Below, piece after piece: positions 12,829 to 58,249 of a stretch of DNA of 59,084 bases. Both the position numbers and the translations under genes were made by a program. The first letter of the stretch is position 1. The number at the start of each line of letters is the position of its first letter. The notes beneath the pieces were generated by a model, which was not told where the DNA came from, did not search any database, and saw only the letters and a program-made list of their open reading frames with translations. The stretch comes from Prevotella sp. (GTDB lineage: Bacteria > Bacteroidota > Bacteroidia > Bacteroidales > Bacteroidaceae). The stretch spans positions 1 through 59,084 of the forward strand of contig JAFVGZ010000032.1 of assembly GCA_017478025.1 (NCBI GenBank), given 5' to 3'.

Positions 12829-12904
12829 AAATTCTCAATTTCTTCCGACAAATTCTCAATTTCTATCGGAAGATTCTCAATTATTTACGACAAATTCTCA
12901 ATTT
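12829..12904. repeat. Tandem dyad array D (21-bp period, 4 units)
   Basis: Unit AAATTCTCAATTT (arms AAATT/AATTT) starts at 12829, 12850, 12871 (variant AGATTCTCAATTA) and 12892, with 8-base spacers, an exact 21-bp period. It sits in the 576-base gap between the minus-strand operon and the plus-strand AraC gene, immediately upstream of the operon promoter. The rest of the gap (12905-13207) shows no gene I can support. Confidence 0.85.
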
Positions 12905-13207
12905 TGTTCAAAAAAGCGCCATTTCATCGGAGTTGTTTGGGTAATTGCTCTTTTTGATGATTTTATGTAGCAAATGTAGTTCGCAGGGGCTGTTTGGAGC
13001 CATATCAGTCATGCTGAGCGACAATAAGTATCACCCTCCGGAACACTCTTCTTTGTATTGGAAGATGTTGATAAACCACTAAAATCACAGTAAAGCACAC
13101 CACACAAAAGATATGTATAGTGACAATTTCATCGTAGAGGGACCCTTCTTTTGCCGGTTCGTCACAGGTGCAATCTTTCGATGAATTCACAAATACTTCC
13201 TCTTTCG

Positions 13208-13239
13208 TTTGGCTGGATGAAGGAAAATGCCTACCTTTG
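13208..13239 (+). promoter_or_regulatory. Promoter of the AraC-family gene
   Basis: TTTG (13208-13211) and TACCTTTG (13232-13239) are 20 bases apart. This places transcription start near 13246 and argues for translation from the ATG at 13258 rather than an earlier one at 13168. Confidence 0.75.
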
Positions 13240-13257
13240 CGTATTGTAAGCGAACAA

Positions 13258-14481
13258 ATGATATTCTCAATATCCCATACATTGCAGTCTTTCTTGATTC
13301 TGCTACCTGTTACGGCATGCAGCCTTATTACGCTTTGGTTGCTCATCGTTCAGCTGCGGTATCGCCGTCGTGAGCTCTCGTGGCTTGTGGCGTGGAGTGT
13401 CATAGCTACGATTCTCTATGCCTGTCATGCGGTGTATTTCAGTAATCCAGAGACATCTCATCCCATCGTGGATACCATATACGTGGTGAGCAATCTCTCT
13501 GTTTATCCGCTATACCTGCTGTATCTCATAGCCCTCACGCGCAGAGGGTGTCCCCGTGCGCCCATTGTCACGGCGCTCCTTGCGCCTGCGGTCATAGGCG
13601 GATTCGTTGCAGGCACTCTCTATAGCATGATGGATGCAGGACAGCTGAGGCTCTTTACCGAATCCTTCCTGCGTGGCAACAGCATGGAATCTCTCAGCGG
13701 CCTGACCCTACTGCAGGCCTGGTGGCATATAGCTTGCCGCATAGTCTTTGCCATTCAGGTCTTCGGCGTGGTCTTCGCCGGGCAATATCTCATACGCCAT
13801 TACGAAGAAGAGATTGCTATGGACTATGCTGATCTGCAGGGCCGCACGCTGTCCTCCTTGCGGGGCATACTGTGGCTACTGCTCGCCACAGCGGTATTCT
13901 CGGTCGTTGTCAATATCATCGGGCGTCAATGGTTCACCAATTCGCCGTGGCTCCTGTTCTTTCCGTCCATCGCTTTCTCTATACTGCTTGCGCTGATAGG
14001 CCTGGAGGGCGTGATGTATGGAATGGTGCCCATAGCCATGAATCGCCCACCATTGGAGGATGTAGGGACACAACAGCTGGCACAGCGGGACAGAGGCGCG
14101 TTGGACAATGGTGTGCAGGGTGAGATGTCTGAGTCTATGATTGCAATGGCAGGGGGCGAGAGCATTGTGAGTTTTCTGCGGGAGCGGAAGTTCTTCCTGC
14201 GCCCTGATTTGCGTCTGGCTGACCTCACAGAGGCCATGCACACCAACCGCACCTATCTATGGCAGGCGTTGAGAGACGAAGGCACTACATTCTCAGAACT
14301 TGTCAATACTATGCGAATAGAATATGCAGTAGAGTTGATGGATAATCATCCTGATATGGCGATGTCGGATATTTGCGTTCGCTCAGGCTTTTCTAATTTA
14401 GACTCATTCTACCGTCGCTTTCGCAGTGTGATGCACTGTACTCCTCGTGAGTATATGAATAATGTAACAGAAAAGAAGTGA
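13258..14481 (+). CDS. Membrane-anchored AraC-family transcription regulator
   Basis: From the ATG at 13258 the product has 407 residues. The N-terminal 270 or so hold about seven hydrophobic segments (for example LILLPVTACSLITLWLLIV near the start). The C-terminal 100 form an AraC-type double helix-turn-helix, with LRLADLTEAMHTNRTYLW as the first motif and MSDICVRSGFSNLDSFYRRF as the second. This is a membrane sensor fused directly to a DNA-binding domain, common in Bacteroidetes; ligand and targets are unknown. An AlkZ-related gene begins five bases after its stop, so the two are probably cotranscribed. Confidence 0.85.
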   Translation: MIFSISHTLQSFLILLPVTACSLITLWLLIVQLRYRRRELSWLVAWSVIATILYACHAVYFSNPETSHPIVDTIYVVSNLSVYPLYLLYLIALTRRGCPRAPIVTALLAPAVIGGFVAGTLYSMMDAGQLRLFTESFLRGNSMESLSGLTLLQAWWHIACRIVFAIQVFGVVFAGQYLIRHYEEEIAMDYADLQGRTLSSLRGILWLLLATAVFSVVVNIIGRQWFTNSPWLLFFPSIAFSILLALIGLEGVMYGMVPIAMNRPPLEDVGTQQLAQRDRGALDNGVQGEMSESMIAMAGGESIVSFLRERKFFLRPDLRLADLTEAMHTNRTYLWQALRDEGTTFSELVNTMRIEYAVELMDNHPDMAMSDICVRSGFSNLDSFYRRFRSVMHCTPREYMNNVTEKK

Positions 14482-14485
14482 TAAT

Positions 14486-15142
14486 ATGCTTTACACTTGT
14501 CCGCAAGTAATAGAATACATCCACGAGGTAGGTTTCCTGCCTTTGCTCGATAGCGGCATAGCAGGCTACTCTGCCGAGGATTTGGTAGATGAAGACTGCC
14601 GCTATGTGGTGCTGCCCGATGGTGGGTGGGACTGGCCGCTGTGGAAATGGAAAGGCGAGATAGTGACTGATGGTGGCTGTATGTATGGCAAGTTCTTCAA
14701 TAAGAAGGCCGGCTTCGTCAGTCGCGAGTGGTGGCCGGACTTCTTTAATGTGCGCCGCTCCCTGCACCCCGCACCCGAGGAGGGTACTATAGAAGACTCT
14801 ATTCTCACCGTGCTGCGCGAGAGCGGTAGCCTCATAACACGTGAGCTGCGCGCTGCATGTGGTTTTACAGGACCAAAGATGCGCAGCCGTTTTGATGGCT
14901 ATGTCACGCGACTGCAGATGGGATGCCATATCGTTACCGAAGACTTTGTCTATCCTACAGACCGTCACGGGCGGCAGTATGGCTGGGGATGGTCTTTGCT
15001 CAACACTCCGGAGGAACTCTATGGGTGGGAGGTGTGCCAATGTGAGCGCACGCCAGAGGAGTCTTTGCAACGCATCATGGAGCACATGCACAAGCTACTG
15101 CCTCATGCCACGGAGAAGCAGATAAGGAAGATGATAGAATAA
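14486..15142 (+). CDS. AlkZ-related winged-helix protein
   Basis: The 218-residue soluble protein has no signal peptide. The segment GFLPLLDSGIAGYSAEDLV, followed by WDWPLWKWKGE and a winged-helix stretch (about 105-165, LITRELRAACGFTG), matches what is usually named AlkZ-related, after the YcaQ/AlkZ DNA glycosylase fold. It is much shorter than the full glycosylases (near 400 residues), so enzymatic activity is uncertain. It starts five bases after the AraC regulator and is probably in its operon. Identification rests on recognised motifs only. Confidence 0.55.
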   Translation: MLYTCPQVIEYIHEVGFLPLLDSGIAGYSAEDLVDEDCRYVVLPDGGWDWPLWKWKGEIVTDGGCMYGKFFNKKAGFVSREWWPDFFNVRRSLHPAPEEGTIEDSILTVLRESGSLITRELRAACGFTGPKMRSRFDGYVTRLQMGCHIVTEDFVYPTDRHGRQYGWGWSLLNTPEELYGWEVCQCERTPEESLQRIMEHMHKLLPHATEKQIRKMIE

Positions 15143-15251
15143 AGCACCCCTCCTGCTTCCCCCCTAGGGGGGAGGGACCTGAACTGCGAAGTGGGAATAA
15201 TTATAATAAACAAATAAACCCTCATCCATCCCCCCCTCATCCATTATAAAC

Positions 15252-16106
15252 ATGACTATACTGATTGTAATTCCTGTTCTTACGTTGTTGATGTTCTGCC
15301 TGGGACTGACACTAATCCTCGCAGACTTCAAGATGGTATTAGAACGTCCGCGCGCTATCATTGCCGGTCTGTGCGGACAGTTGTTCTTTCTGCCGGTGAT
15401 AGCATTCCTGTTAGGGTGGGCTTTCCATCTTGACGCGATATTCTATCTCGGCCTGATACTCATAGCATGCTGTCCTGGAGGCAGCTCTTCCAATGTGTTC
15501 TCCATGCTTGCCAAGGGCGATGTGGCGCTGAGCGTATCTCTCACTGCCTGCAGCAGCATACTTACATTGTTTACTATCCCGCTCGTGATGGGTGCAGCGG
15601 CAATGCTGTTGCCAGGTGTCGAAGGAGGTAGCATAGAGATGCCTGTAGGCAAACTGATAGCGCAGAACCTCGTACTGGCATTATTGCCTGTATTCATCGG
15701 GATGTTCATAAGGTATAAATGGGAGAATGCGGCGCGCAAGATGAGTCGTGTGCTCAACAAAATGGCGCTACCGTTGTTGGTACTCCTCGTGGTAATCTTC
15801 TACACTCAGAACAGCGATGCCATTCTCATCAACCTGCCTAAGCTCGGTCTTATCATTACTCTGCTTATTCTCCTCGCTATGGGAGGTGGCTGGTTGCTCT
15901 CACATGGAGCGCGCCTTAACGGTCGTGAGCAACGCACGCTCCTCATAGAGATAGGCATGCAGAACGCTGCGCAGGCGATAGCAATGGCCTCAAGCCCATT
16001 CGTATTCAACAATGAGACGATGGCTATCCCCGCCATTATCTATTCGCTGATGATGAATGTAGTCCTCATTACGTATGTGTTTATAGTAAAGAGAAGCGCC
16101 ACATAG
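15252..16106 (+). CDS. Bile acid:sodium symporter family transporter
   Basis: The 284-residue inner-membrane protein has about nine or ten hydrophobic segments. CCPGGSSSNVFSMLAKGDVALS is the BASS-family signature region between segments 3 and 4, and the later stretch EIGMQNAAQAIAMA fits the second conserved motif. Members move bile acids, pantoate or other organic acids with sodium; the substrate here is unknown. The 109 bases upstream are a C-rich repeat without a recognisable promoter. Confidence 0.85.
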   Translation: MTILIVIPVLTLLMFCLGLTLILADFKMVLERPRAIIAGLCGQLFFLPVIAFLLGWAFHLDAIFYLGLILIACCPGGSSSNVFSMLAKGDVALSVSLTACSSILTLFTIPLVMGAAAMLLPGVEGGSIEMPVGKLIAQNLVLALLPVFIGMFIRYKWENAARKMSRVLNKMALPLLVLLVVIFYTQNSDAILINLPKLGLIITLLILLAMGGGWLLSHGARLNGREQRTLLIEIGMQNAAQAIAMASSPFVFNNETMAIPAIIYSLMMNVVLITYVFIVKRSAT

Positions 16107-16127
16107 CCCCGCCCTCACCATCTTACA

Positions 16128-16228
16128 GTGCCCGACGGTTTCCCCGTCGGGAAATCGCAAGGCACAAAGACCCCCCAACGCGTAACCGCAATACACAAAG
16201 AAAGCCCGCCGGGGAAACCGTCGGGCAC
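16128..16228. repeat. REP-like inverted pair
   Basis: Arms at 16128-16146 and 16210-16228 are exact 19-bp inverted copies (GTGCCCGACGGTTTCCCCG), and the left arm also folds on itself (CCCGACGG / CCGTCGGG). It resembles the elements at 24250-24272, 33758-33825 and 42317-42369. The intervening 63 bases encode nothing recognised. Confidence 0.8.
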
Positions 16229-16253
16229 AGTAGATACTGACGACAGGCACAAT

Positions 16254-16285
16254 AAAAGACCGCTGGCTCTCACCAGCGGTCTTTT
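16254..16285 (-). terminator. Terminator after tRNA-Pro
   Basis: A perfect 13-bp stem (AAAAGACCGCTGG at 16254-16266, complement at 16273-16285) has a 6-base loop and U-rich ends on both strands. It would end the proA-murF-tRNA transcript on the minus strand and may also serve the symporter on the plus strand. Confidence 0.85.
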
Positions 16286-16293
16286 GCATTTCG

Positions 16294-16366
16294 TCGGGGT
16301 GACCAGACTCGAACTGGCGACCCCTACGTCCCGAACGTAGTGCGCTACCAACTGCGCTACACCCCG
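16294..16366 (-). tRNA. tRNA-Pro (anticodon CGG)
   Basis: The 73-base cloverleaf has an acceptor stem CGGGGTG/CACCCCG with discriminator A, a D arm GCGC, an anticodon stem CTACG/CGTAG around the loop TTCGGGA (anticodon CGG), and a T arm GCCAG/CTGGT with loop TTCGAGT. The C1-G72 pair is typical of bacterial tRNA-Pro. CCA is not encoded. It lies 39 bases downstream of murF on the same strand, at the end of the proline biosynthesis cluster. Confidence 0.95.
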
Positions 16367-16405
16367 AAATGCTCTTATTATGCGAATAAATAACTCGAAC
16401 CTATC

Positions 16406-17686
16406 CTATAATAACTCGGGCAATTCAAACAGCCTGATGCCGTTGGAGCCCTTTATGAGGATATATTTTCCTTCCGGTGTTCCCTCCTCCGCCAGTGCTG
16501 TCTTCACTGCGTTCACATCTGCAAACGTGCGGAAGGGATTGTCTGTCTTTTGAAACTCCGCACCCACAAGCCATACCGTCCACGGCTTCTGCGGGGCTTG
16601 ATGAGTCTTTATATAGTCCACCACCTTCTGGTGTTCTGCATTCGATACCTCGCCCAACTCTCTCATGTCGCCAAGGATGGTCATCGCCTGCGTGCCCTCG
16701 GGCAGTGATTTTGTCAGCACCGTAAAGTTCTCCAGCGCAGCCATCATCGATGTCGGATTGGCGTTGTATGTATCCACTATCAGCTTGTTTTTCTCCGTCA
16801 CAGTGAGTTGTGAGCGGTTATTGCTCGGCGTATAGTGGCTCAGAGCCTCGTTTATCTGCTCGTTGCTGACCCCGAAGTGGCGTCCCACCGTAGCGGCGGC
16901 CATCATGTTGGTCAGGTTATACGTGCCTATGAGCTGCGTCTGCACCTCGCCGCCTTCCCAGCGGAACTTCAGGAACGGTGAGCAGGATATCACTTCTCCC
17001 TCCAGATAAGGCGTCTGCCTGATGCCTCCGGCGATGCCCGTCAGGTGTTCATTACTGCTATCGATGAATATCTCACCGTCGTTCTGGCGCAGATAGTCAT
17101 ACAGTTCTCCCTTGGTCTTTATCACACCTTCAAAGGATCCGAAGCCCTCCAGATGTGCCTTGCCTACGTTTGTTATCAGACCGCAGTCAGGTTCCACTAT
17201 ATCCACAAGGGTCTTTATCTCCCCTGGGTGGTTAGCACCCATCTCTATCACGGCCATCTCATGCTCTTTGGTAAGCCTGAGAAGGGTCTTCGGCACTCCG
17301 ATGTGGTTGTTGAAGTTGCCCTGAGTATAGAGGATGTTGTATTTCCTCTGCAGAACTGCAGCAATCAGTTCCTTAGTCGTAGTCTTGCCATTGGTACCTG
17401 TGATACCTATTATCGTGGTGCCGAGAGCCTTGCGATGCTCATTGGCCAGTTGTTGCAGTGCCTTCAGCACATCGGGGACAAGGATGTATCTCTCGTCGTC
17501 AGAGACGCTATACTGCGGCTCATCAACCACAGCGTATGCACAACCCTTCTGCAATGCAGCCTCTGCGTACGCATTGCCGTTGAAGGTCTCGCCTTTCAGA
17601 GCGAAGAAGATGCTTCCTTCGGGGCAGTCACGACTGTCTGTAGTGATGACAGGGTGGGAGAGAAATAGAGAATATAGCTTTGTCAC
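16406..17686 (-). CDS. murF: UDP-N-acetylmuramoyl-tripeptide:D-Ala-D-Ala ligase
   Basis: MurF adds D-Ala-D-Ala to UDP-MurNAc-tripeptide, the last cytoplasmic step of the peptidoglycan precursor. The ATP loop GITGTNGKTTT (about 95-105), the MEMGANHPGEI-like motif (seen as VIEMGANHPGEI) and VDTYNANPTSM are all present. The frame is open to 17725, but that start lies inside proA. A GTG at 17684-17686, two bases past the proA stop and giving VTKLYSLFLSHP, fits the usual MurF N-terminus, so I chose it (426 residues). It is cotranscribed with proB/proA and followed by tRNA-Pro. The start is the uncertain part. Confidence 0.92.
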   Translation of the reverse strand: MTKLYSLFLSHPVITTDSRDCPEGSIFFALKGETFNGNAYAEAALQKGCAYAVVDEPQYSVSDDERYILVPDVLKALQQLANEHRKALGTTIIGITGTNGKTTTKELIAAVLQRKYNILYTQGNFNNHIGVPKTLLRLTKEHEMAVIEMGANHPGEIKTLVDIVEPDCGLITNVGKAHLEGFGSFEGVIKTKGELYDYLRQNDGEIFIDSSNEHLTGIAGGIRQTPYLEGEVISCSPFLKFRWEGGEVQTQLIGTYNLTNMMAAATVGRHFGVSNEQINEALSHYTPSNNRSQLTVTEKNKLIVDTYNANPTSMMAALENFTVLTKSLPEGTQAMTILGDMRELGEVSNAEHQKVVDYIKTHQAPQKPWTVWLVGAEFQKTDNPFRTFADVNAVKTALAEEGTPEGKYILIKGSNGIRLFELPELL

Positions 17687-17688
17687 TT

Positions 17689-18930
17689 TTATGCTCTGAT
17701 TTGTCCGTTGCCCTCTATGAGCCATTTGTATGTGGTCATCTCCTCCAGTGCCATTGGCCCGCGTGGGCCGAGCTTCTGGGTCGAAATGCCTATCTCAGCA
17801 CCCATGCCGAACTGTGCTCCGTCTGTGAAGCTGGTCGGCGCGTTGACATATACGCAGGCTGCGTCAACCTCTTTCTCAAACTTCTCTGCGTTCTCCTTGT
17901 TGTCTGTGATGATGCACTCAGAGTGTCCGGAGCCGAAGCGTGTGATGTGTTCTATGGCTTCATCCACGTCGTTTACGGTCTTTATGGCCATAGCATAGTC
18001 CATGAACTCCGTGCCGAAGGACTCTTCCGTGGCTTGCATCAGCAGATTGGCGGGATAGCTCTTGTTGAGATAACCATACGCTCCCTGGTCGGCATAAATC
18101 CTTACGTTCGACGGCAGGAGTATCATACCTATGGTCGGCAGGTCCTCCAGGCGGCTCTTATGGATGATGAGGCAGTCCAATGCGTTGCAGACGCTGACGC
18201 GGCGTGTCTTGGCATTGTTGATGATACGCATTGCCATATCAAGGTTTGCGTACTCATCCATGTATGCGTGTACCACACCTGCACCTGTCTCTATCACCGG
18301 TACCTTTGCGTTGTCGCGCACGAAGTCTATGAGTCTGCGGCCTCCGCGAGGTATGCAGACATCAATGTATCCCACAGCTCCGAGCATCTCTGCCGTTGCC
18401 TCGTGTGTAGCAGGAAGCAGCTGAACCACTCCGCTATCTACGCCGTTGTCGGTGAGTACCTTCTGTATCAATGCCACGATAGCTTTGTTTGACTCCTCCG
18501 CATCGTGTCCGCCCTTCAGTACGCAGGCGTTACCGCTCTTGAAACAGAGTGAGAATACGTCAAAAGCTACGTTAGGACGTGCCTCAAATACCATTCCGAT
18601 AACTCCGAACGGTACTGCTACCTTCCTCAGATGAAGTCCGTTAGGCAGAGTCTTGTCTGTCAGTGTGCGTCCCAAAGGCGATGGCAGACCTGCTACATGA
18701 CGCATGTCAGAGGCGATGTCCTCCAGGCGCTTAGCGGTCAGTTGCAGGCGGTCATACAGTGGGTTGGACGGATCCATCTTATCCAAATCCAAACGGTTGG
18801 CCGCCAAGATGTCACTCTCTGCCTGCTTGATGGCATCGGCCACAGCAAGCAATATCTCATCGCGGCGCTCATCGGGGATGAGTGCCAACAGCCGTGAGGC
18901 ATCTTTTGCTATTTGGAATTGTGGCAGCAT
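17689..18930 (-). CDS. proA: Gamma-glutamyl phosphate reductase
   Basis: ProA reduces gamma-glutamyl phosphate to glutamate semialdehyde with NADPH, the second step of proline synthesis. The 413-residue protein has the family motifs [19 protein letters not shown] (nucleotide-binding side) and [13 protein letters not shown] with the catalytic cysteine near 245; [18 protein letters not shown] closes the C-terminal region. Length is normal. It lies downstream of proB with a 132-base gap full of 21-base direct repeats, and abuts murF. Confidence 0.96.
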
Positions 18931-18937
18931 TCTTATT

Positions 18938-19018
18938 TACAATTTACCATGTACAATGTACAATTTGTTATCTGTAATGTACAATTTACCATGTACAATT
19001 TGTTATCTGTAATGTACA
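18938..19018. repeat. Tandem A/T-rich repeats between proB and proA
   Basis: Units TACAATTTACCATGTACAAT and TACAATTTGTTATCTGTAAT alternate over about four copies of roughly 14-21 bases. The gap otherwise holds a C-rich repeat (about 19034-19060). No promoter was seen, so proA is probably read from upstream. Confidence 0.7.
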
Positions 19019-19062
19019 ACTTGGTTCTTTCTCATCCCCTTGGGGTAGGGGCGGGGAGAGGT

Positions 19063-22517: not shown

Positions 22518-22673
22518 GATTTATAATGCGTGATTAAATTTCCTTTATTGTTCATCCATAACGCATAAGCATCTGCATCATGCATTGCCAATTATGCATT
22601 ATGAATTATGCATTATGCATTCTTTCTCCGCTTCGCTATGAAAGCGTCCCTTTGGGCCGAGCGATGCATTACA

Positions 22674-23957: not shown

Positions 23958-24119
23958 GACTGACAAAATGGCAGCCCAAAACTATCTGATAATCAACGCG
24001 TTGCAATAGTGGGTCTTTTAGGCGGTAAAAGACCTACTATTACCGGGTAAAAGACCTACTATTAGGCGGTAAAAGACCTACTATTAGAACGCAATAGTTA
24101 CTCTGACATTTTGTCAGTC
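23958..24119. repeat. Tandem dyad array A (22-bp period) inside 13-bp inverted ends
   Basis: Three direct copies of TAAAAGACCTACTATTA start at 24026, 24048 and 24070, preceded by one inverted copy at about 24004-24020. The 5-base spacers are GGCGG, CCGGG, GGCGG. The inverted first unit can pair with any later one. The segment is bounded by exact 13-bp inverted repeats GACTGACAAAATG (23958-23970) and CATTTTGTCAGTC (24107-24119). It lies in the 538-base gap between divergent promoters (argC and the LRR gene). A homologous array is at 38815-38900. Confidence 0.88.
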
Positions 24120-31634: not shown

Positions 31635-31738
31635 ACTGGCTGTTGTTTCTCAATGGGAAACACTTTGTTTCCACTTACGAAACAAACTGTTTCCACCCAC
31701 GAAACAAACTGTTTCGCAAAGGGAAACAAGTGAGAAAC
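31635..31738. repeat. Tandem dyad array E (22-bp period, about 5 units)
   Basis: Unit GAAACAAACTGTTTC (arms GAAACA/TGTTTC) starts at 31679 and 31701; related units start at 31635 (degenerate), 31657 (GAAACACTTTGTTTC) and 31723. Spacers are 7 bases, giving an exact 22-bp period. It fills part of the 375-base gap upstream of the barrel gene; the rest of that gap holds the terminator at 31743-31777 and the promoter region. Confidence 0.87.
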
Positions 31739-31742
31739 AAAA

Positions 31743-38668: not shown

Positions 38669-38814
38669 CAATGACTTAGGCTTCTACATAAGCATTACAT
38701 GCTTATGACGCAAAGAAGGGCAAAAGGTTTAGTTTGGGCCTGAAAAAAATGTGTCTGACACCACTTTTCGGAGTGTTGAAAAATGGGTCTCAGAACAGAC
38801 TGATAATCAGAGCG

Positions 38815-38900
38815 TTGCAATAGTAGGTCTTTTACCTCCTAAAAGACCTACTATTACCGGGTAAAAGACCTACTATTAGGAGGTAAAAGACCTACTATTA
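38815..38900. repeat. Tandem dyad array B (22-bp period), homologous to array A
   Basis: An inverted unit (about 38818-38834) is followed by TAAAAGACCTACTATTA at 38840, 38862 and 38884 with spacers CCTCC, CCGGG, GGAGG. The flank GATAATCAGAGCGTTGCAAT matches array A (GATAATCAACGCGTTGCAAT). First and last spacers are complementary. It lies in the 660-base gap between divergent genes (PL11 and FadL). The same gap holds a hairpin at 38971-39024 (CTGAACCCATCCGTTT against AAACGGATGATGAGTTCAG) and the FadL promoter box; no gene was seen. Confidence 0.88.
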
Positions 38901-47857: not shown

Positions 47858-49234
47858 TTATTTCTTGTTAATTCTCATTCTGTTCCATGCGACGAGGGCT
47901 ATCGTCAAGAGTGTCAGCAGGGCTGCACCAATGTAGCTTATATACTTGATACAAGCGTATATGAGCGTTGACAGGGGACTTGATGCAAAGTCGAGCGCAC
48001 CTGCCTGGAAGCCTGCTGGCACCTGAACGGTCTTGTCGTCAGGATGTACCTGGGCTACAGTGTGAGCCGCACTGGTGAAGTCGCCCGCCATCCAAGTTAC
48101 GAAATACAGGCCTATTGCCATTACTACCAATCCTACAATGAACGAGCGCAGCACGTTGCCGTTGGTGTATGGCAACACCATTACGAATACATAGAACATA
48201 CCTGCGAGCGATGCCAGAGGCAGGAATTGGTTGCCGGGCAGCACCACTGCCAGTATCAGTGTAACTGGAATGAGCAGCAATGACACTACGAGAGTCGTAG
48301 GATGGCCGATAACAAGAGCAGGTGACATGCCGATATAGAGCTCTTTGTCCTCACCAAACTTCTTGGCGATGAGTTCCTTCGTAGCCTCTGCGATAGGTTT
48401 CAGACCTTCGATGAAGAGGCTGGTAATGCGTGGAATAAGCTCCATCACCGCTCCCATCTTGATGCCTATCTGCAGGGTTGTGGGTATACGGTCAACCACT
48501 TCTGCCCAGTCCTTACATGCCAGACAGCCGATGATGATGCCTATGAGCACTCCGAGGAAGAGCGGTTCGCCAAAGAGACCGAACTTCTTCTTCATGCCCT
48601 CGGAGTCAATGTTCACCTTGTTGATACCGGGAACATAGTCCAATACCTTATTTATTATAACAGCAAACGGCATGAATCCCTGGCAGAAGGGCTGTGGTAT
48701 GGATATGCCGTCCATGCCGGGATAGAAGCTCTGGAAGCGTTTTGCCGTGATGTCTGCCAGCACCAATGTTATGATGTAGCAGATGATGGCGGCGAAGAAA
48801 CCCCATACTATGCTGCCGGTCATAAAGTAGATTACTGCTCCGATGAATGCGAAGTGCCAGTAGTTCCACAGGTCAATGTTCACCGTGCGGGTGCAACCTA
48901 AAAGCAGAAGCAGCAGGTTTACGCCCAGACACACGGGGATGATGAATGATCCGACAAGGGTATTATAGGCTACCGACGCTGCGGCAGGCCAGCCCATGTC
49001 AAACACCTGTAGCTTGAGGTCATAGATTTCAACCACTTTAGAGAGTGCCGGTGACATGGTGTCCACAAGGAGTGCCGTGATGATACTCAGGCCTACGAAA
49101 CCTACACCCACGTATAAACCGCTCTTCAGAGCCTTTGAGAAGTTGATACCGATGCATACACCGAGGATGGTGAAGATGATAGGCATCATGACAGCGGCGC
49201 CAAGGCCGATGATGTAAGAGAATACTGCTTCCAT
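47858..49234 (-). CDS. Orphan PTS galactitol-type EIIC transporter
   Basis: The 458-residue inner-membrane protein has at least ten hydrophobic segments. YIIGLGAAVMMPIIFTILG at the N-terminus, FDMGWPAAASVAYNTLVGS, and GMSPALVIGHPTTLVVSLLL are EIIC-Gat motifs. No EIIA, EIIB, HPr or EI gene is in the window, and Bacteroidetes generally lack a working PTS, so it probably acts as a plain transporter. Its operon neighbours (exported KduI, DUF4861) suggest a uronate or pectin-derived substrate. This role is inference. Confidence 0.8.
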   Translation of the reverse strand: MEAVFSYIIGLGAAVMMPIIFTILGVCIGINFSKALKSGLYVGVGFVGLSIITALLVDTMSPALSKVVEIYDLKLQVFDMGWPAAASVAYNTLVGSFIIPVCLGVNLLLLLLGCTRTVNIDLWNYWHFAFIGAVIYFMTGSIVWGFFAAIICYIITLVLADITAKRFQSFYPGMDGISIPQPFCQGFMPFAVIINKVLDYVPGINKVNIDSEGMKKKFGLFGEPLFLGVLIGIIIGCLACKDWAEVVDRIPTTLQIGIKMGAVMELIPRITSLFIEGLKPIAEATKELIAKKFGEDKELYIGMSPALVIGHPTTLVVSLLLIPVTLILAVVLPGNQFLPLASLAGMFYVFVMVLPYTNGNVLRSFIVGLVVMAIGLYFVTWMAGDFTSAAHTVAQVHPDDKTVQVPAGFQAGALDFASSPLSTLIYACIKYISYIGAALLTLLTIALVAWNRMRINKK

Positions 49235-49267
49235 TATTGTTTGTTTAGTTCGTTTGTTTTACTATGT

Positions 49268-49362
49268 TTTTTGGGGTAAACCGTTTGTTTTGATATGCTT
49301 TTTGGGGTAAACCGTTTGTTTTGTTTACTTGTTTTGTTCTGTTTTTGGGGTAAACTGTTTAT
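49268..49362. repeat. 31-bp tandem repeat between the DUF4861 and EIIC genes
   Basis: TTTTTGGGGTAAACCGTTTG plus TTTT occurs at 49268-49291 and 49299-49322 (31-bp period), and a third partial copy (GGGGTAAACTGTTTATT) follows at 49342-49362. The last copy runs up to the stop of the DUF4861 gene. It lies within the presumed transcript. Confidence 0.8.
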
Positions 49363-50618
49363 TCCCTATACTTAATTACCTCAGTCTTTATTACCACAAT
49401 GTTTGCGGGCGACTGTAGTTCCTTTTTCCACTCCTTCAGGTATTCAAACCATTCGTCTTGGCCCTTGAAGCCGAAGGTCTCGATGTGGCATGTGGAGGTA
49501 AACCAGTAGCGCATGAAGTCTGTCGTTGTGCCTACCAGCTCCACATAAGCCTGATCAGGCAGGTGCTCCTTGCCGTTGGTGAAGTGTGAATCACCTTTGT
49601 AATACTCTTTCGGGATGTATATTCCCAGTCCCACCGTAATGGTATCATAGACCTTCGGATTGTTGCCGGCACATGCTCTGCCCCAGCATCCGCGCAGACC
49701 AGCTTTGTCCGTATATTCCTGCGAGCCCTCTACGATATCCACTATTCCCGTTGACAGCGGCACATCGGCAACGGGGCGGGAGAACTGTACCTGTGTCTCC
49801 ACATCGCGATGTCCCATGTACAGTATATATCTTGTCCTGATATCAACGGGTTTGCATCCCTCATACGGGCGCCACCCCTTGTTTGTTATGTCAAGTACGG
49901 TGCGCACGGGTCCCTGGCACACCACTGTCTGGGTGTGGTTGCGTGAGTTCTGGAACATCACATTCTTTGTGCCGTCCCATCCGTGCAGAGTTCCGCAACC
50001 GTATGTGGAGCCCGTGTAAAGCACGTCCTCGCCATATCCTTTGTCGCGCTGCTCCTGTGTGGTGTAGAACCCGGTCTCGGCAATATCGGCCTTCAGAAGG
50101 CGGTGTCCGTAATAGTCTATGGACTGGCGGTGGTCAGCATAAACGCGGAATCCCACCATATCGTTCTCCATTACAGCACCATGAGGATAGATGTAATTAT
50201 ATGGATTTGTCTCTGCCGGCCATGTGACGGAGCATACTTGCTGGTGCTTCTGCACCTTTGCGCTTTTGTCGCGGTCGCGCAATCCTACATAACCGTACGT
50301 AACGGGCTCATACTTGCGTGGCTCACCCTCGGTGGAAAGTGTTACAGTGAACGTCTGCTTCTCTTTCTTTTGCATGTCAGTGACAAATGACAGTTCGTCA
50401 AACAGACCGTCATCATCCATGTCATCCAGCTGGCAGGGCACCTCCTTTCCGTTCAGGGTCACCAAGGCGCTCGCTACGGTGCCATCTACGCTCACTACTA
50501 CCGGCACTGCGCGCCGTGCTGTTTTGGCGGTGTTAGTTACGTTAACGGTAAGTGTCGTCTCTGCTGCCAAAGCTGTGACAGCAGTCAGGGAGGCAAGTAT
50601 GGTAAGTAGTTTTCTCAT
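49359..50618 (-). CDS. Secreted DUF4861-family protein
   Basis: The 419-residue protein has a signal peptide (about 1-19, ending ALAAE), a beta-rich N-terminus (VPVVVSVDGTVASALVTLNG, LDDMDDDGLFDELSFV) and the middle motif PHGAVMENDMVGFRVYADHR with YYGHRLLKADIAETGFYTT. These match DUF4861 proteins found in polysaccharide utilisation loci for pectin and other uronic-acid glycans; their activity is not established as far as I know. It opens the cassette DUF4861-EIIC-kduI. Only 34 bases separate it from folK upstream, and no promoter was recognised. Confidence 0.8.
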   Translation of the reverse strand: MRKLLTILASLTAVTALAAETTLTVNVTNTAKTARRAVPVVVSVDGTVASALVTLNGKEVPCQLDDMDDDGLFDELSFVTDMQKKEKQTFTVTLSTEGEPRKYEPVTYGYVGLRDRDKSAKVQKHQQVCSVTWPAETNPYNYIYPHGAVMENDMVGFRVYADHRQSIDYYGHRLLKADIAETGFYTTQEQRDKGYGEDVLYTGSTYGCGTLHGWDGTKNVMFQNSRNHTQTVVCQGPVRTVLDITNKGWRPYEGCKPVDIRTRYILYMGHRDVETQVQFSRPVADVPLSTGIVDIVEGSQEYTDKAGLRGCWGRACAGNNPKVYDTITVGLGIYIPKEYYKGDSHFTNGKEHLPDQAYVELVGTTTDFMRYWFTSTCHIETFGFKGQDEWFEYLKEWKKELQSPANIVVIKTEVIKYRE

Positions 50619-52304: not shown

Positions 52305-52994
52305 TTATTGTTTGTCAAGCCATTCCTGGAAGTTGTCCAGTGTCACGCAGTCCTCAATCCTCACATTGCCTGCACGTGTGCGGCACAGCTGTGTGAGGTA
52401 TGCACCGCTGCCAAGTGCACGCCCTATGTCGCGTGCCAGAGAACGTATGTACGTTCCTTTGCCGCAGACGACGCGTATCTGGGCCTGTTTCTTCTCGTCA
52501 TCATACCACAAAAGCTCCATTTCATCGATGCGAACGGGCTTTGGTTGCAGGGTTACAGACTGGTCTTGGCGCCTCAGTTCGTATGCTCGTTTGCCATCCA
52601 CATGCACTGCACTGTAGGTTGGTGGCACCTGCATGATGTCTCCCTGAAACTGCTTCAGCACATCGCGCACGCTCTGCTCCGTGATATGGTCGGCGGGATA
52701 GGTCTGGTTCACCTCGTGTTCCATATCGTAACTTGCCGTTGTGGCGCCGAACTGTAGCGTGGCCGTATATTCCTTCGTGTGCTGCTGCAGTTCCTGTATC
52801 TGCTTCGTGCACTTGCCCGTGCAGAGTATCAGCACCCCCGTGGCAAGCGGGTCCAGCGTTCCCGCGTGTCCTGTCTTGACTCGCTTCACGCCCTCACGCC
52901 GCGAGATACGCTTGCGTACAAAGGCCAAAGCCCCAAAGCTTGTCATGCCATAGGGCTTGTTGATGCCTATTATTTCGCCTTCCTTGAAATTCAT
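52305..52994 (-). CDS. truB: tRNA pseudouridine-55 synthase
   Basis: TruB makes the universal T-loop pseudouridine. INKPYGMTSFGALAFVRKRI, the catalytic Asp in GHAGTLDPLATGVLILCTGK (about 45), and CGKGTYIRSLARDIGRALG are present. Its 229 residues lack the C-terminal PUA extension of E. coli TruB (314 residues), as is common in Bacteroidetes. It ends 22 bases before queA. Confidence 0.95.
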   Translation of the reverse strand: MNFKEGEIIGINKPYGMTSFGALAFVRKRISRREGVKRVKTGHAGTLDPLATGVLILCTGKCTKQIQELQQHTKEYTATLQFGATTASYDMEHEVNQTYPADHITEQSVRDVLKQFQGDIMQVPPTYSAVHVDGKRAYELRRQDQSVTLQPKPVRIDEMELLWYDDEKKQAQIRVVCGKGTYIRSLARDIGRALGSGAYLTQLCRTRAGNVRIEDCVTLDNFQEWLDKQ

Positions 52995-53071
52995 ATTTAT
53001 GCACCTTTTCTCACCAAGGCAGAGTCAATGCAAGCATCACTCTGCTCTTTTGGCTTATCGAAAACGTTCAT

Positions 53072-53947
53072 TTAATCAACCATTACCAGTGAATGCCCAG
53101 TGATCAGCATGACGATAATGATGCCTCCTACGATGATGCGGTATATACCAAAGGCCTTGAAGCCGTATTTTGACAGGAAATCCACAAACCATTTCATTGC
53201 CAGCAGGGCCACGACAAATGCCACGACGCACCCCAACAGCAGCATGGTGATGTTGTGCGGAGTGGCCCATGAAGTGTCATCTTTCAGCAGGTCGAGCAGG
53301 TCAAGCAGCGTGGCGCCTGCCATAGTGGGCACTGCCAGAAAGAAAGAGAACTCAGCGGCGCGCCTGCGTGTCAGCCCCTGTGTCATGCCTCCGACGATGG
53401 TAGCCATAGAGCGCGACACACCCGGTATTACGGATATGCATTGGTACAGACCTATGTTGAATGCTTTCTTCTCATTGAGTTTGGTCAGTTCTGAGCCTTT
53501 GTTGAACAGTTTGTCGCAGTAAAGCATGAAGACACCGCCTACGACCAGCATGATGGCAACCACTTCGACGCTGTCAAGCAGCCAGTCGAGCAGTCCGGAT
53601 TTCTTTGCCAACAGTCCTATCACAACAGCCGGAATGACGCCTATTATCAGTAGCCAGTAGAAATAGAAACGGTGCTTCAGTTTCTGGAAGGCGTTGCTGC
53701 CGGCGGGAGCGGGACTGTTATCAAACTGGAAGAAGCGCTTCCAATACAGGCATACAACTGACAGAATGGCTCCAAACTGAATGATAAATGTGAATGCATG
53801 GACAAAGGCCTTGTCTGACTCGCTGAGTGCGTCGGGAGTGAGTCCCAACAGGTTTTGGGCTATAATCATGTGTCCCGTAGAGGATACGGGAAGAAACTCT
53901 GTCAGCCCCTCAACGATCGCAATGATTATCGTTTCTATCCAATCCAT
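53072..53947 (-). CDS. uppP: Undecaprenyl-diphosphate phosphatase (BacA/UppP)
   Basis: UppP recycles the lipid carrier for cell-wall synthesis. The 291-residue membrane protein carries the two family motifs EGLTEFLPVSSTGHMIIAQN near the N-terminus and VIPGVSRSMATIVGGMTQGL in the middle, with about seven or eight membrane segments. It lies six bases after the DUF3098 gene. Confidence 0.95.
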   Translation of the reverse strand: MDWIETIIIAIVEGLTEFLPVSSTGHMIIAQNLLGLTPDALSESDKAFVHAFTFIIQFGAILSVVCLYWKRFFQFDNSPAPAGSNAFQKLKHRFYFYWLLIIGVIPAVVIGLLAKKSGLLDWLLDSVEVVAIMLVVGGVFMLYCDKLFNKGSELTKLNEKKAFNIGLYQCISVIPGVSRSMATIVGGMTQGLTRRRAAEFSFFLAVPTMAGATLLDLLDLLKDDTSWATPHNITMLLLGCVVAFVVALLAMKWFVDFLSKYGFKAFGIYRIIVGGIIIVMLITGHSLVMVD

Positions 53948-53953
53948 TCCGTA

Positions 53954-54181
53954 TTATTTCTTATCCTCCTTTGGACGGTACATGATGGCGGCGATAATAG
54001 ACACAAAGCCCACGAGGCATATCATCGGTGCCACGCTGATGCGTGAGGCAGAGAATATCTCTGGCGCGAAACTTTTCTCAGTACTTGATGCACCTGTCAT
54101 CATGACAAAGCCGATGATGACGAGCACCATGCTCAGGCCTATCAGGATAAAGTTAATCTTCTTAAATGCGAAATTATTCAT
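53954..54181 (-). CDS. DUF3098 small membrane protein
   Basis: The 75-residue protein has two membrane segments (INFILIGLSMVLVIIGFVMM and VAPMICLVGFVSIIAAIMY) with a short loop containing GASSTEKSF, the pattern of DUF3098. This family regularly sits between ftsX and uppP in Bacteroidetes, as here. Function unknown; an envelope role is inferred from neighbours. Confidence 0.88.
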   Translation of the reverse strand: MNNFAFKKINFILIGLSMVLVIIGFVMMTGASSTEKSFAPEIFSASRISVAPMICLVGFVSIIAAIMYRPKEDKK

Positions 54182-54230
54182 CGTTTGTCCTTTTAATCTT
54201 AATTATGCATTTTGCATTATGCATTTTTAA

Positions 54231-55103
54231 TTAAATCTTATAAAGTCTTCTTGTCGGCATGTTGAGGTAGTGGTTTACGGAGAAGTAAACACATGCTGTG
54301 GAAATCAGCAGTCCGAAGAGCAGCACTGCTCCTCCTGTGATAGCCAGCACCTCCCATGTCACGACAGCCTGTGTCTCGCTCTCGTATGTGAAGAGCGCAT
54401 AGACACATCCTGCCAGCACCGCATCAGCAATGATTCCAGCCAACAGTCCCTCTGCTACTGCCATCCCTATGAACGGCCGGCGTATGAAACTCCATGAGGC
54501 ACCGACAAGTTTCATCGTGTTGATGGAGAACCTGCGTGAGAAGATGCCGAGACGCACCGTGTTGTTGATGAGCGAGAATGATACCACCATGAGCAACACC
54601 GCCAGCACCACCATCACCAGCGCCACCTTCCTTAGGTTGCGGTTGACGCTCTCCATTAGGTCCTTCTGATAGCTCACCTCGGCCACGTGCTCGTAGGAGC
54701 TGATCTGCTTTCCTATCCACTTCAGCGAGTCGCTATTGGCACAACTGGCGCAGAGGTGTATCTCTGCCGACGGCACAAAGGGATTGACACCTAAGAACTC
54801 TGACGGGTCGGCCCCCAGAGCCTTCGTCTGCTCCTTCAGTGCCTGCTCGCGAGAGATGTACTCCAGGTGTACGACATAAGGCTTCGTCTGAAGCTTTCTG
54901 CACACTACGGCTGCCTCGCGGTCGGTGGTGATGTCATCAAACATCACTGTTATCGTGAGGTTTTCCTTAACATAGTTCGACAAATTCTGTGCTGACAGAC
55001 CTATCAGCACTACCAAACCTAGCAGAATGAGCACAAGTGACGTACTGATACACAACGTCACCACCTGCAGCCCTCTGCCATTTCCTTTTCTTTTGCGTTT
55101 CAA
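54231..55103 (-). CDS. ftsX: Cell division protein FtsX
   Basis: FtsX with FtsE links division to peptidoglycan hydrolase activation. The 290-residue protein has a short cytosolic Lys/Arg-rich start, a membrane segment (about 14-36), an extracytoplasmic domain (about 40-165: ITVMFDDITTDREAAVVCRK) and three further membrane segments with FSINTMKLVGASWSFIRRPF between the second and third. No ftsE is adjacent in this window. First gene of the ftsX-DUF3098-uppP-truB-queA-folK run. Confidence 0.93.
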   Translation of the reverse strand: MKRKRKGNGRGLQVVTLCISTSLVLILLGLVVLIGLSAQNLSNYVKENLTITVMFDDITTDREAAVVCRKLQTKPYVVHLEYISREQALKEQTKALGADPSEFLGVNPFVPSAEIHLCASCANSDSLKWIGKQISSYEHVAEVSYQKDLMESVNRNLRKVALVMVVLAVLLMVVSFSLINNTVRLGIFSRRFSINTMKLVGASWSFIRRPFIGMAVAEGLLAGIIADAVLAGCVYALFTYESETQAVVTWEVLAITGGAVLLFGLLISTACVYFSVNHYLNMPTRRLYKI

Positions 55104-55127
55104 TTTTCTATACTACAAATTTTGCCA

Positions 55128-55135
55128 CAAAATTA
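55128..55135 (-). promoter_or_regulatory. -7 box of the ftsX operon
   Basis: TAATTTTG on the minus strand, 25 bases before the start; CTTG, one base off TTTG, lies 20 bases further upstream (55156-55159). Confidence 0.6.
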
Positions 55136-55208
55136 CAATTAAGTTTTGAGATATGCAAGAAAAAATGATAATTAAGGTTCAAGAAAGGTGATTTCAGAGA
55201 CATGACTG

Positions 55209-55238
55209 TTTGTTAAACCGGCAAAAGTAGTACCTTTG
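55209..55238 (+). promoter_or_regulatory. Promoter of the M6 protease gene
   Basis: TTTG (55209-55212) and TACCTTTG (55231-55238) are 18 bases apart. It is divergent from the ftsX promoter. Confidence 0.7.
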
Positions 55239-55278
55239 CAATCGCTAAAAGTGTGTTATCATTATAATCCATCGTATC

Positions 55279-57009
55279 ATGAGATATCTCTATACATTGT
55301 TTTTCTTCTTTTCGGTCAGCATTGCATCGTATGCAGCTAAGGCCTGTGGACCATCTATTTCGGCAACTCTTGCCGACGGTCGTTCTGTTACGTTGAGCCT
55401 TTGGGGTGATGAACATATCAGTTTCTTTGTAGCAGAGGGCGGTGAATTGGTGCTGCGCAATAAAGACGGCATATATTATGTTGCCTCTGATGCACAGAGG
55501 GATAGCCTCCAGGCAGTACTGACAGAGTTGAACCACCGCAGCATGGAGACGCTCCGCAACGGGGCATCCAAGGGCGTGCTCGGCAGTTCGCCGCGCCTTG
55601 ATTACGGCGGCGCTACACCCCACGAGGGAGACGTACGCATACCAGTTATTATGGTAGAGTTCACGGATAGCGTGTTCCGCTTTACTCGAAATGATGTGGA
55701 TAAACTCCTCAACAGCTCTGAGTATCAGACGTCAGACCGTTTCCGCGGATATGGTTCTGCGGCACAATACTTCAAAGACTGCAGCCGTGGCAAGTTCTCG
55801 CCAAAGTTTGATGTATATGGTCCATACAAGCTGAATCACACCAGTAAGTACTACGGTGGCGGCCCTTCTTCTCAGGAGAGGATAAAACAGGTAGTCAGGG
55901 ATGCTCTGGCTCAGGCGACGGGCGACATTGACTTCTCGCTCTATGATTCAGACAAGAATGCCGTCATTGATGGTGTCTGCGTATTTTATGCAGGATGGAA
56001 CAGTAACCAGACACTGAATGATGATGACCTGTGGCCCCAAAGCGGCAATGATAATCTCGGCACTTACGGCGGTCTCTCGCTGACGCGTTGGCTTGCCTGT
56101 GGTGAGATACTGGGTAATAAATATTTCTATTCGGCTAATGATAAATATGCACTGACCGGTATCGGAGTATTTGTACATGAGTTCTCACACATGCTCGGCA
56201 TGCCTGATTTCTATCCTATCTCTGTATCCAAGACCGCATATAGTCAGCTTGACAATCAGTCAATGGAGGATTGGGACGTGATGGACAATGGCGAAAATAC
56301 GCAGGCAGGACTCTACCCCATACCCTATTCGGCCTGGGAACGTGAGTACATGGGGTGGAACGGTAACATGAAAGTGCTCTCTGAGCCTTCTGACGTCACT
56401 CTCGTACCCCTGATGTCTGGTGGTGAGGGACTGAAGATTATCAATGACAACGATGCCTCAGGCAATGAATTCTATGTGCTGGAGGCACTGCCGTCAGGTA
56501 TCGAGAGCGGGTGGTATCGGTATCTTAAGGGCAGCGGAATGCTCATCACTCACATCAATTATAAGGAGAGTACATTCGAGGGAATCAACTACCCCAACAA
56601 TGTTATAGGAAAGCCAGGCATAACAATTATCCCCGCTGATGGTTATCTGCCATCGTCATATCGCATTAAGAGTAATATCACGGAGAGCTATGGCGACTAC
56701 CTTACGCAAAGTGATTACTACAAACAGTTGGCAGGAGACCCGTATCCCGGTACCGGCAAAGTGACATCATTCAATAACTATAAAGCCTACACGGGCACCG
56801 TCGACAAGCCCATAACCGAGATTACCCGCAATAGAAGCGACTATTCCGTGTCGTTCAAGTTCATGGGTGGTACAGTAGGCATCAATGATGCGGCTGCCGA
56901 CACCGCTCCTTCTGCCGACAAGACCTACAAGACCCTTGTCAACGGACGCCTCATGATAATAAAAGGAAACGAGGCTTACACCCCAGCAGGAGTGAGATGC
57001 ACCCGCTAA
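55279..57009 (+). CDS. Secreted M6-family metalloprotease
   Basis: The 576-residue protein has a signal peptide (about 1-19, ending SYAA), a propeptide-like part (about 25-110) and an M6 (immune-inhibitor-A-like) catalytic domain: VRIPVIMVEFTDSVF near 118, and the zinc site FVHEFSHMLGMPDFYP (HExxHxxGxxD, about 300). SMEDWDVMDNGENT follows. The C-terminus (LVNGRLMIIKGNEAYTPAGV) resembles short type IX-like sorting tails. It probably degrades host or dietary protein outside the cell. Confidence 0.9.
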   Translation: MRYLYTLFFFFSVSIASYAAKACGPSISATLADGRSVTLSLWGDEHISFFVAEGGELVLRNKDGIYYVASDAQRDSLQAVLTELNHRSMETLRNGASKGVLGSSPRLDYGGATPHEGDVRIPVIMVEFTDSVFRFTRNDVDKLLNSSEYQTSDRFRGYGSAAQYFKDCSRGKFSPKFDVYGPYKLNHTSKYYGGGPSSQERIKQVVRDALAQATGDIDFSLYDSDKNAVIDGVCVFYAGWNSNQTLNDDDLWPQSGNDNLGTYGGLSLTRWLACGEILGNKYFYSANDKYALTGIGVFVHEFSHMLGMPDFYPISVSKTAYSQLDNQSMEDWDVMDNGENTQAGLYPIPYSAWEREYMGWNGNMKVLSEPSDVTLVPLMSGGEGLKIINDNDASGNEFYVLEALPSGIESGWYRYLKGSGMLITHINYKESTFEGINYPNNVIGKPGITIIPADGYLPSSYRIKSNITESYGDYLTQSDYYKQLAGDPYPGTGKVTSFNNYKAYTGTVDKPITEITRNRSDYSVSFKFMGGTVGINDAAADTAPSADKTYKTLVNGRLMIIKGNEAYTPAGVRCTR

Positions 57010-57078
57010 TGTCCTCTGTCTCCTTCTATATCCCTTCATCTCCAAAGAAAGCAGAGCTTTCGAAAACTACATAACAGA

Positions 57079-57300
57079 ATGGCAACAATAGTATTACAAG
57101 TACCCGATGAGACCCTCGTCTCAAAAGTTAAGCAGGCCTGCAAGATGCTGATGGGCGTGGCCTCAGTGAAAGTGCAGAAGCCCAAAGAGACAGACATCAC
57201 CAAGACGGCGGGCTATAAGGCCGCTATGGATGATGTAAAGAATGGACGTGTTTATCATGCGAAAAGCGTCGATGATATGTTCAATCAAATACTTGGATGA
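57079..57300 (+). CDS. Probable antitoxin of a YafQ-type pair
   Basis: The 73-residue protein begins MATIVLQVPDETLVSKVKQA, a ribbon-helix-like N-terminus, and has a flexible C-terminus (NGRVYHAKSVDDMFNQIL), the usual plan for an antitoxin that binds DNA with one end and toxin with the other. The family is not one I can name with certainty. The stop overlaps the toxin start. No promoter box was recognised in the 69 bases after the M6 gene. Confidence 0.7.
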   Translation: MATIVLQVPDETLVSKVKQACKMLMGVASVKVQKPKETDITKTAGYKAAMDDVKNGRVYHAKSVDDMFNQILG

Positions 57301-57578
57301 TGTACAGCATAGATTATACTCATCAGTTTAAAAAAGACCTGAGAAGGTGTGCCAAGCGGGGACTGGATATTGAGGCTATAAAAACTGCAATCAACATCCT
57401 TTCAAATACGGGCACGCTTCCTGCTCAATACCGTCCACACCCGTTGAAAGGCGACCACAAAGGGCAATGGGAATGCCACATTCAGCCTGACTGGCTGATG
57501 ACGTGGGAACAAAATGACAACCAGTTGACCCTGCTTTTCCTTGAGACGGGAACTCACGTTGATCTGTTTGGATGGTAA
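57297..57578 (+). CDS. YafQ/RelE-family mRNA interferase toxin
   Basis: The 92-93 residue protein (start at 57297 or 57300) matches YafQ: YTHQFKKDLRRCAKRGLDIE, then LPAQYRPHPLKGDHKGQWEC, HIQPDWLMTWE and LLFLETGTHVDLF. The conserved histidines and the final HxDLF block, which in E. coli YafQ form the ribonuclease site, are present, so it may be active. Type II toxin-antitoxin module with the overlapping antitoxin upstream. Confidence 0.88.
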   Translation: MMYSIDYTHQFKKDLRRCAKRGLDIEAIKTAINILSNTGTLPAQYRPHPLKGDHKGQWECHIQPDWLMTWEQNDNQLTLLFLETGTHVDLFGW

Positions 57579-57632
57579 TTGCTAATATGGAATGTGAGAA
57601 TAAAGTATTACCCAATTTAATGATTTAATAAC

Positions 57633-58079
57633 ATGAAATCAATGGAAGAATCAATGAATTTTAATGATGTCCCATTCGGATGGGCACTATGCTGTCTCAA
57701 TGAATGTACCAAGAAGGCTGACTGCCTGCGCTACCAGATGTGCTGCAAGGTGCCCGATGGCGTAACAAGAAGTGTCTGCGTCCTCCCCAATGTGCTAAAG
57801 CTGAGTGACTGTCCGCATTTCCATCCTATGAAGGTGGAGCGTGTGGCATTGGGCTTTCGTAACATCTTTGCAGAGGTAAAGGAAAAACATCATGCCCGCA
57901 TGCGGGCTGAAATCTCTCGCTACTTAGGCGGTGGCGGCACATTCTATCGCTACAGAAACGGAGAGACACCGCTGTTGCCGGAACAGCAGGAGTGGATTAA
58001 GCAACTGTTCGCACGCTACGGATACACGGAAGAAGTAGTGTTTGATGAATACAAGGACATGTATCGCTTTGACGAATAG
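57633..58079 (+). CDS. Small Cys-rich cytosolic protein, DUF6078-like
   Basis: The 148-residue protein has no signal peptide. Its first half carries six cysteines (ALCCLNECTKKADCLRYQMC), which could bind a metal, and the second half is KEKHHARMRAEISRYLGGGG then LLPEQQEWIKQLFARYGY, possibly a DNA-contacting helical pair. It resembles the DUF6078 proteins of Prevotella and Bacteroides; this is from memory and tentative. Function unknown. It may be cotranscribed with the toxin-antitoxin pair 54 bases upstream. Confidence 0.6.
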   Translation: MKSMEESMNFNDVPFGWALCCLNECTKKADCLRYQMCCKVPDGVTRSVCVLPNVLKLSDCPHFHPMKVERVALGFRNIFAEVKEKHHARMRAEISRYLGGGGTFYRYRNGETPLLPEQQEWIKQLFARYGYTEEVVFDEYKDMYRFDE

Positions 58080-58107
58080 TGCTTTTACCAACTTCCCGCC
58101 AACCTTT

Positions 58108-58249
58108 GGTAAACCGATTACCAACGGCCTGGTAAACCGATTACCAAGGGCCTGGTAAACCGATTACCAAGGGCTGGTAAACCGATTACCAAGGCTTGGT
58201 AACCCAATTACCAAGGCTTGGTAACTCAATTACCACAGCTTGGTAACTC
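58108..58249. repeat. Tandem dyad array C (22-23 bp period, about 6.5 units)
   Basis: GGTAAACCGATTACC starts at 58108, 58131, 58154 and 58176; variants GGTAACCCAATTACC (58198) and GGTAACTCAATTACC (58220) and a partial unit (58242) follow. Arms GGTAA/TTACC form the dyad; spacers of 7-8 bases drift from AACGGCCT to ACAGCTT. The array lies in the 554-base gap between convergent genes. The rest of the gap (58324-58633) has no supported gene, apart from a possible remnant near 58339-58420. Confidence 0.88.

Follow-up and report, generated by a model that had tools for sequence, protein, structure and literature searches.

REP/BIME elements, which occur together with RAYT transposases, consist of dispersed intergenic dyads that are paired or clustered, and plasmid iterons are short protein sites placed about 22 bp apart, corresponding to a two-turn spacing. 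According to the sections consulted of the report on PINSR, this is a 188-bp intergenic repeat of Prevotella intermedia that encodes no protein and has no known function; it is present in 177 and 184 copies in two strains, was detected in four species by PCR, is said to lack terminal inverted repeats, and has a site that is named downstream of tnaA (Naito 2015, PMC4755523). Neither half-sites nor an 11-bp step is described in those sections (PMC4755523). BrickBuilt, as portrayed in the parts consulted of its description, is a MITE of Porphyromonas gingivalis composed of a leader, an array, and a tail, with a period of 23, 1 to 22.8 repeats, and IS5-like ends, whose repeat number differs between strains, as shown for one locus (Klein 2015, PMC4596501).

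The stretch of DNA analyzed here (the window) comprises 59,084 nucleotides of a Prevotella sp. genome (assembly GCA_017478025.1, contig JAFVGZ010000032.1). An array of dyads is found in each of the five intergenic gaps named in the original prediction, at or a few bases from the expected place. The arrays and the recognizable parts of their elements are the following.

24004..24097, + strand: array A, nine half-sites with an 11-bp step, alternately inverted
38818..38900, + strand: array B, eight A-family half-sites, with degenerate outer ends
58107..58246, + strand: array C, half-sites TGGTAA/TTACCA, first two steps of 23 bp, then 22
31645..31727, + strand: array E, eight GTTTCN/NGAAAC half-sites with an 11-bp step
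12820..12904, + strand: array D, AAATT-3-AATTT dyads separated by 8-bp spacers, period 21
23960..24117, + strand: element of array A, 158 bp from end to end, with paired end motifs
23960..23974, + strand: left terminal repeat of A, CTGACAAAATGGCAG, nearly a dyad by itself
24103..24117, + strand: right terminal repeat of A, CTGACATTTTGTCAG
23986..23995, + strand: cap dyad CTGATAATCA adjoining array A
38800..38810, + strand: cap dyad CTGATAATCAG of element B
31643..31652, + strand: left outer inverted repeat of E, TTGTTTCTCA
31731..31740, + strand: right outer inverted repeat of E, TGAGAAACAA

Other species of the genus, too, have arrays bordered by a cap similar to that of A. The claim that exactly five gaps exceed 300 bases hinges on gene calls; a sixth gap (57010-57632) would be added if the 93-amino acid ORF at 57297-57578 is a non-gene.

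Arrays A, B, C, and E follow a common rule, in which alternately inverted 6-base half-sites are set out as 6+5+6+5 = 22, usually with eight or nine half-sites per array. Since the spacer in these arrays is a dyad centre as well, half-sites of alternating orientation follow one another every 11 bp. A and B belong to one sequence family, as had been predicted; between families the geometry is common and a likeness of sequence is missing. D stands outside the 11-bp rule (5+3+5+8 = 21). The predicted range of periods of 21-23 bp holds within the window, where the period is 22 in A, B, and E, 23, 23 and then 22 in C, and 21 in D (three steps). No report of the 11-bp rule was found in the one open-licence library searched. 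Because a helical turn takes 10.5 bp, a step of 11 bp is not exact and over nine sites drifts away from one face of the helix, and the idea that all dyads lie on one DNA face is therefore only approximately correct.

The abundance of such arrays was determined in a sample of 1.256 Mb, window included, of the 2.93-Mb genome (84.7% complete), with intergenic regions set by our own greedy ORF calls in place of a gene finder. Chains, defined as at least three successive dyads, were counted separately for steps from 8 to 18 bp. There are 48 chains with a step of 11 bp, 47 of them intergenic, versus 0-15 at each other step, and 20 shuffles that preserved the dinucleotides of the intergenic blocks contained 0-1 step-11 chains as compared to the 47 real ones. 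In 144 kb of intergenic DNA, 94 pairs of exact-dyad centres are separated by 11.0 bp, 75 by 22.0 bp, and 60 by 33.0 bp; one shuffle yielded zero pairs at any of these distances. With Tandem Repeats Finder, period 22 accounted for 63 of 260 intergenic arrays in the 1.256 Mb and period 21 for 22, every other period of at least 13 having no more than 20 arrays; in a shuffled copy, period 22 was assigned to one row and period 21 to two. The arrays are thus genuine, far more frequent than chance would allow, and extend beyond the window. What did not carry over is the statement that every gap above 300 bases holds an array; an array of 21-23 bp is found in 66 of 151 gaps of at least 300 bp, and the statement is therefore true locally only. 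This count was made with ORFs of at least 100 amino acids, and with these, gaps of 150-300 bp contain such arrays in 19 of 145 cases and still shorter gaps in 23 of 456. If ORFs must have at least 130 amino acids, the count for the long gaps becomes 68 of 171. The number of half-sites is eight or nine in 22 of 31 A arrays, 11 of 14 C arrays, and both E arrays.

In the genome of the window, BLAST returned 66 rows for A, 32 for C, seven for E (four places), and two for D (one other genomic place), rows of both strands and pieces of single arrays being counted. At 13 distinct loci, the end motifs of A, with terminal repeats of 15 bp each, start exactly 143 bp from one another, defining elements of 158 bp. 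One further pair is 121 apart, that is, one 22-bp unit shorter, and one is 201 apart; the listing comprises 16 end pairs, of which C28 and C29, having identical flanks, were counted once. The A core is also found inside a second type of ends, CCGAAAAATAGGACA, with 12 matches in 1.256 Mb and two pairs, both of 203 bp. The elements around C measure 206 and 244 bp, have other ends, and likewise possess terminal inverted repeats. Between neighboring A units, 69 of 69 spacers measure 5 bp, with a GC content of 82% and a mutual likeness of 40-45%, as would be expected from the predicted selection on spacing with changing sequence. A separate 22-bp family with AGTAACTT cores includes 21 arrays by motif, five of which are inside ORF calls.

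Within the genus, the pattern AAAAS-N5-STTTT-N7-AAAAS-N5-STTTT (A-tract pattern) was searched for in 200 genomes, with the reversed pattern as control. It occurs in 47 of them, with up to 468 matches per genome and 1771 in sum, and is absent from 153; the control gave 159 matches in 28 of the 200. The control equals or exceeds the pattern in G180 (26 and 26), G122 (6 and 7), and G135 (0 and 23), and it is high in G006 (60 and 30). Beyond the genus, a single A-tract match is found in three of 147 genomes of the order, and the reversed pattern likewise in three. Loop sequences vary by genome, and the genome of the window has a single match because its arms differ. In all five relatives sampled, 22 is the commonest period between 15 and 30 (G016, 5/9; G010, 2/5; G078, 5/11; G004, 7/11; G084, 64/84). 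The stretches of G016 and G004 have zero matches to the A-tract pattern and two short 11-bp chains each; those of G010 hold masked N, and chains containing N were dropped from the chain counts.

Another genome of the genus is G084, in which 48 end-paired copies of an element with core are contained in 600 kb (16 kb of these masked). Of 49 copies, 47 are 189 bp long, one is 188 bp, and one is 123 bp, the last having three units fewer and lacking the core motif; a row of length 20 was discarded as a false pair. The constant length of the 189-bp copies, despite a mean difference of 19%, is again in line with selection on spacing, as is the finding that, with 72 spacing choices tried on the 600 kb, 105 of the 109 matches obey the 5/7 rule. 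Four left ends with core have no recognized right end within 5 kb, and copies with lost ends therefore escape the length count. Eight or nine half-sites are found in 16 of 18 arrays; the consensus has nine, like A, and 11 of the 14 letters at its ends match as an inverted repeat, an agreement that the authors of the PINSR report may have left uncounted; the terminal inverted repeats of A and C are clearer. By our own ORF calls, 43 of the 48 copies are intergenic. Even spacing of the copies along G084 was not found (interval CV 0.84 and 0.56).

When named genomes were scanned, the A unit turned up in Prevotellaceae bacterium UBA2718; this sister species gives many alignments at 85-90% identity. 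The comparison started from 36 loci, 35 of UBA2718 and one (L216) of another record. Five without synteny in the compared stretches, 15 without an anchor pair, and three with short matches only (L225, L228, L250) were dropped, leaving 13, of which five are anchored in both species, five in UBA2718 only, and three (L219, L243, L246) are spanned by long or local matches. The array is present in both species at eight of the 13 sites and in UBA2718 only at five. At all eight shared sites, window A among them, the number of units is equal; in the gap of window B, the UBA2718 element has recognizable ends and the opposite orientation, for which reason this locus (L239) was kept out of the seven pairs that were aligned. 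These pairs show zero gap openings in 574 array columns versus 17 in 1463 flank columns (p 0.005), although they were chosen from arrays already having the geometry, which biases the count toward zero gaps. Array identity exceeds flank identity in six of the seven; the exception, L227 (0.70 in the array, 0.87 in the flanks), has flipped inner units with the 11-bp rule intact. Clean empty sites were not obtained, as L215, L220, L223, and L224, which have the array in UBA2718 only, align too loosely for exact joints.

From these comparisons of sequences, A, B, C, and E are somewhat more probably than otherwise selected assembly sites for a predicted, cooperatively binding protein, carried in PINSR- or MITE-like non-coding elements. 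A protein that reads half-sites on the duplex is suggested by the fixed length and free sequence of the spacers, by the eight to nine sites per array, and by the dyad mismatches that are kept. The half-sites would be the contacts of this putative DNA-binding protein, whose dimers could occupy the dyads in either register and form a row along the array; spacing would then matter, and spacer sequence would not. The protein-array complex would serve maintenance or movement of the element itself, with effects on neighboring genes being secondary, and a transposase, a recombinase, or an architectural protein of the host would be candidates for the protein. No cognate protein was found.

As the chief alternative, the arrays might act as hairpins of RNA or single-stranded DNA, be it as terminators, as stabilizers, or as REP-like substrates of Y1/RAYT enzymes, which we regard as rather improbable. 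Their folds do beat those of shuffled sequences (z of -4.6 for A, -6.7 for B, -6.3 for C, and -5.1 for E; -2.0 for D), and the loop dyads of C are perfect in 65 of 71 cases. Yet among 120 loop dyads of A, 83% retain a mismatch at one position of the arm; in G084, the innermost pair is mismatched in 60% of 65 loop dyads, and the top 25 covarying pairs of this genome are mostly neighboring loop letters changing as blocks, which do not make up a helix. The predicted chains of hairpins were not borne out either, as the main fold is a single long hairpin for A, B, and E and a pair of hairpins for C. The genome, at 84.7% completeness, gave no match to Y1_Tnp, the domain of RAYT genes, and at gathering score Rfam has no match on the arrays, the sole match in the window being a tRNA.

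To the same small degree we would credit the view that the arrays are inert debris of an old MITE burst, with a geometry that was inherited and is not under selection. A and C are indeed short, non-coding, dispersed, and bounded by terminal inverted repeats, as is typical of MITEs; 47 of the 48 chains are intergenic, and five of the 13 comparable sites differ between the sister species. Against mere decay speaks the distribution of the differences. Among 12 copies of A, namely, those of 14 loci that passed the filter (L001-L015 minus the duplicate L013), 102 of 158 columns are invariant versus 49 expected under uniform decay, and in G084 the numbers are 74 of 189 versus 0.2 expected at a uniform rate, 46 of the invariant columns being among the 139 that were unused in finding the copies; in 30 other columns of G084, the majority letter is present in no more than 65%. 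Moreover, the lengths of end-paired copies differ by whole 22-bp units, except for the 188-bp copy of G084 and the 201-bp pair, and the geometry is common to families devoid of sequence likeness. A target-site duplication was recognized neither by eye in the 13 listed A rows (12 distinct) nor by an offset scan of 47 copies of G084. No A end pair at an IS-like distance, as an autonomous partner would have, was among the matches listed; in G084, three long end pairs are present. An origin from plasmids or phages was also considered and rejected, A and C being unmatched in the plasmid set and A in the phage set up to an E of 1.

It is quite unlikely that the arrays are operators, that is, phased dyads controlling neighboring promoters. 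A two-turn spacing fits cooperative dimers, and by ORF calls three of the five window arrays are in divergent gaps. A link to divergent promoters is not supported in the larger sample, where the ratio of co-directional to convergent to divergent gaps is 19:5:4 for A arrays (one of 29 without context) and 8:3:4 for C arrays, versus 164:63:66 for all gaps of at least 150 bp. The element of G084 is even depleted in divergent gaps (3/43 versus 35/157, p 0.03) and is commoner in convergent ones (16/43 versus 30/157, p 0.02), as for elements tolerated away from promoters; the difference in array presence at five of 13 sites between the sister species also argues against an operator function. Replication slippage from different seeds, finally, is the least likely source of the 22-bp arrays; while the proposed copying mechanism fits the AGTAACTT family, in which 13-bp spacers are alike within arrays (identity 0.69) and not between them (0.32; eight arrays past the filter), it does not fit A (0.45 within, 0.40 between) and leaves alternating orientation and stable site number unexplained.

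Beyond the preferred reading of protein assembly sites, it is conceivable, if on balance doubtful, that a geometry-recognized system exists as a whole, with nine-site arrays in dozens to hundreds per genome, each of them selected, and a predicted protein with an 11-bp step. If so, protein and half-site letters would change together between species, and the arrays would represent fast-evolving chromosome-organizing or selfish DNA. The fixed spacing, free spacers, and invariant half-sites would offer a bench handle on the missing binding protein, and the spacing rule can find such elements where sequence searches fail.

With regard to the described systems, the arrays of the window differ from REP/BIME elements by the lack of a Y1_Tnp match in their genome and by short dyads that alternate in a regular run, and from iterons by alternate inversion, by occurrence at dozens of chromosomal places, and by the absence of a plasmid match for A or C. 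With BrickBuilt, as far as the parts consulted reach, they share the order Bacteroidales, the intergenic position, and a tandem array of short period flanked by leader and tail; unlike BrickBuilt, they have period 22, an equal number of units at 8/8 shared sites, and ends other than those of Table 2 of that paper (PMC4596501). It is very probable that the G084 element is PINSR, since its length is 189 versus 188 bp and one copy is located about 230 bp downstream of tnaA (a gene named tryptophanase TnaA by NCBIfam); the density is similar as well, the comparison with the sections consulted being one of length, density, and site (PMC4755523). Window A, in turn, differs from PINSR as portrayed there in its length of 158 bp, its terminal repeats, and its sequence. 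PINSR, described from four oral Prevotella species, seems to form a branch of a broader class for which spacing is the best mark of recognition, and the arrays of the window are its relatives in build, not in sequence.

The AT-rich repeats of the window (ATTTACA, ATTATGC), which have period 7 and its multiples, are a class apart from the arrays of inverted half-sites, and the tally of intergenic period-21 arrays in the window's genome was partly swelled by them. The ORF that hosts the 12-bp repeat listed with them here gave no Pfam match.

18935-19019, AT-rich period-7 repeat
22569-22621, AT-rich period-7 repeat
54199-54233, AT-rich period-7 repeat
49251-49373, direct repeat TTGTTTTGATATGCTTTTTGGGGTAAAC, 31/43 bp, between ORFs 47858-49234 and 49359-50618
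58740-58840, 12-bp repeat CCTTCCGCACGT, inside ORF 58634-59056

In the sister species UBA2718, the arrays L223, L243, and L218 are adjoined by a longer palindromic repeat, GGAGGCGACGTG...CACGTCGC. Its array L227 is orthologous to G000:C30:72396-72478 of the window's genome; the inner units are oppositely oriented between the two species, while the spacing is unchanged despite this reversal.

In the elements L158-L167 and L254-L273 of G084, a genome of the same genus, two loop sequences are seen at two positions (columns 77-79 and 99-101), in either order. Both rarely co-occur in one element, a sequence pattern that looks as though the loops were exchanged as modules.
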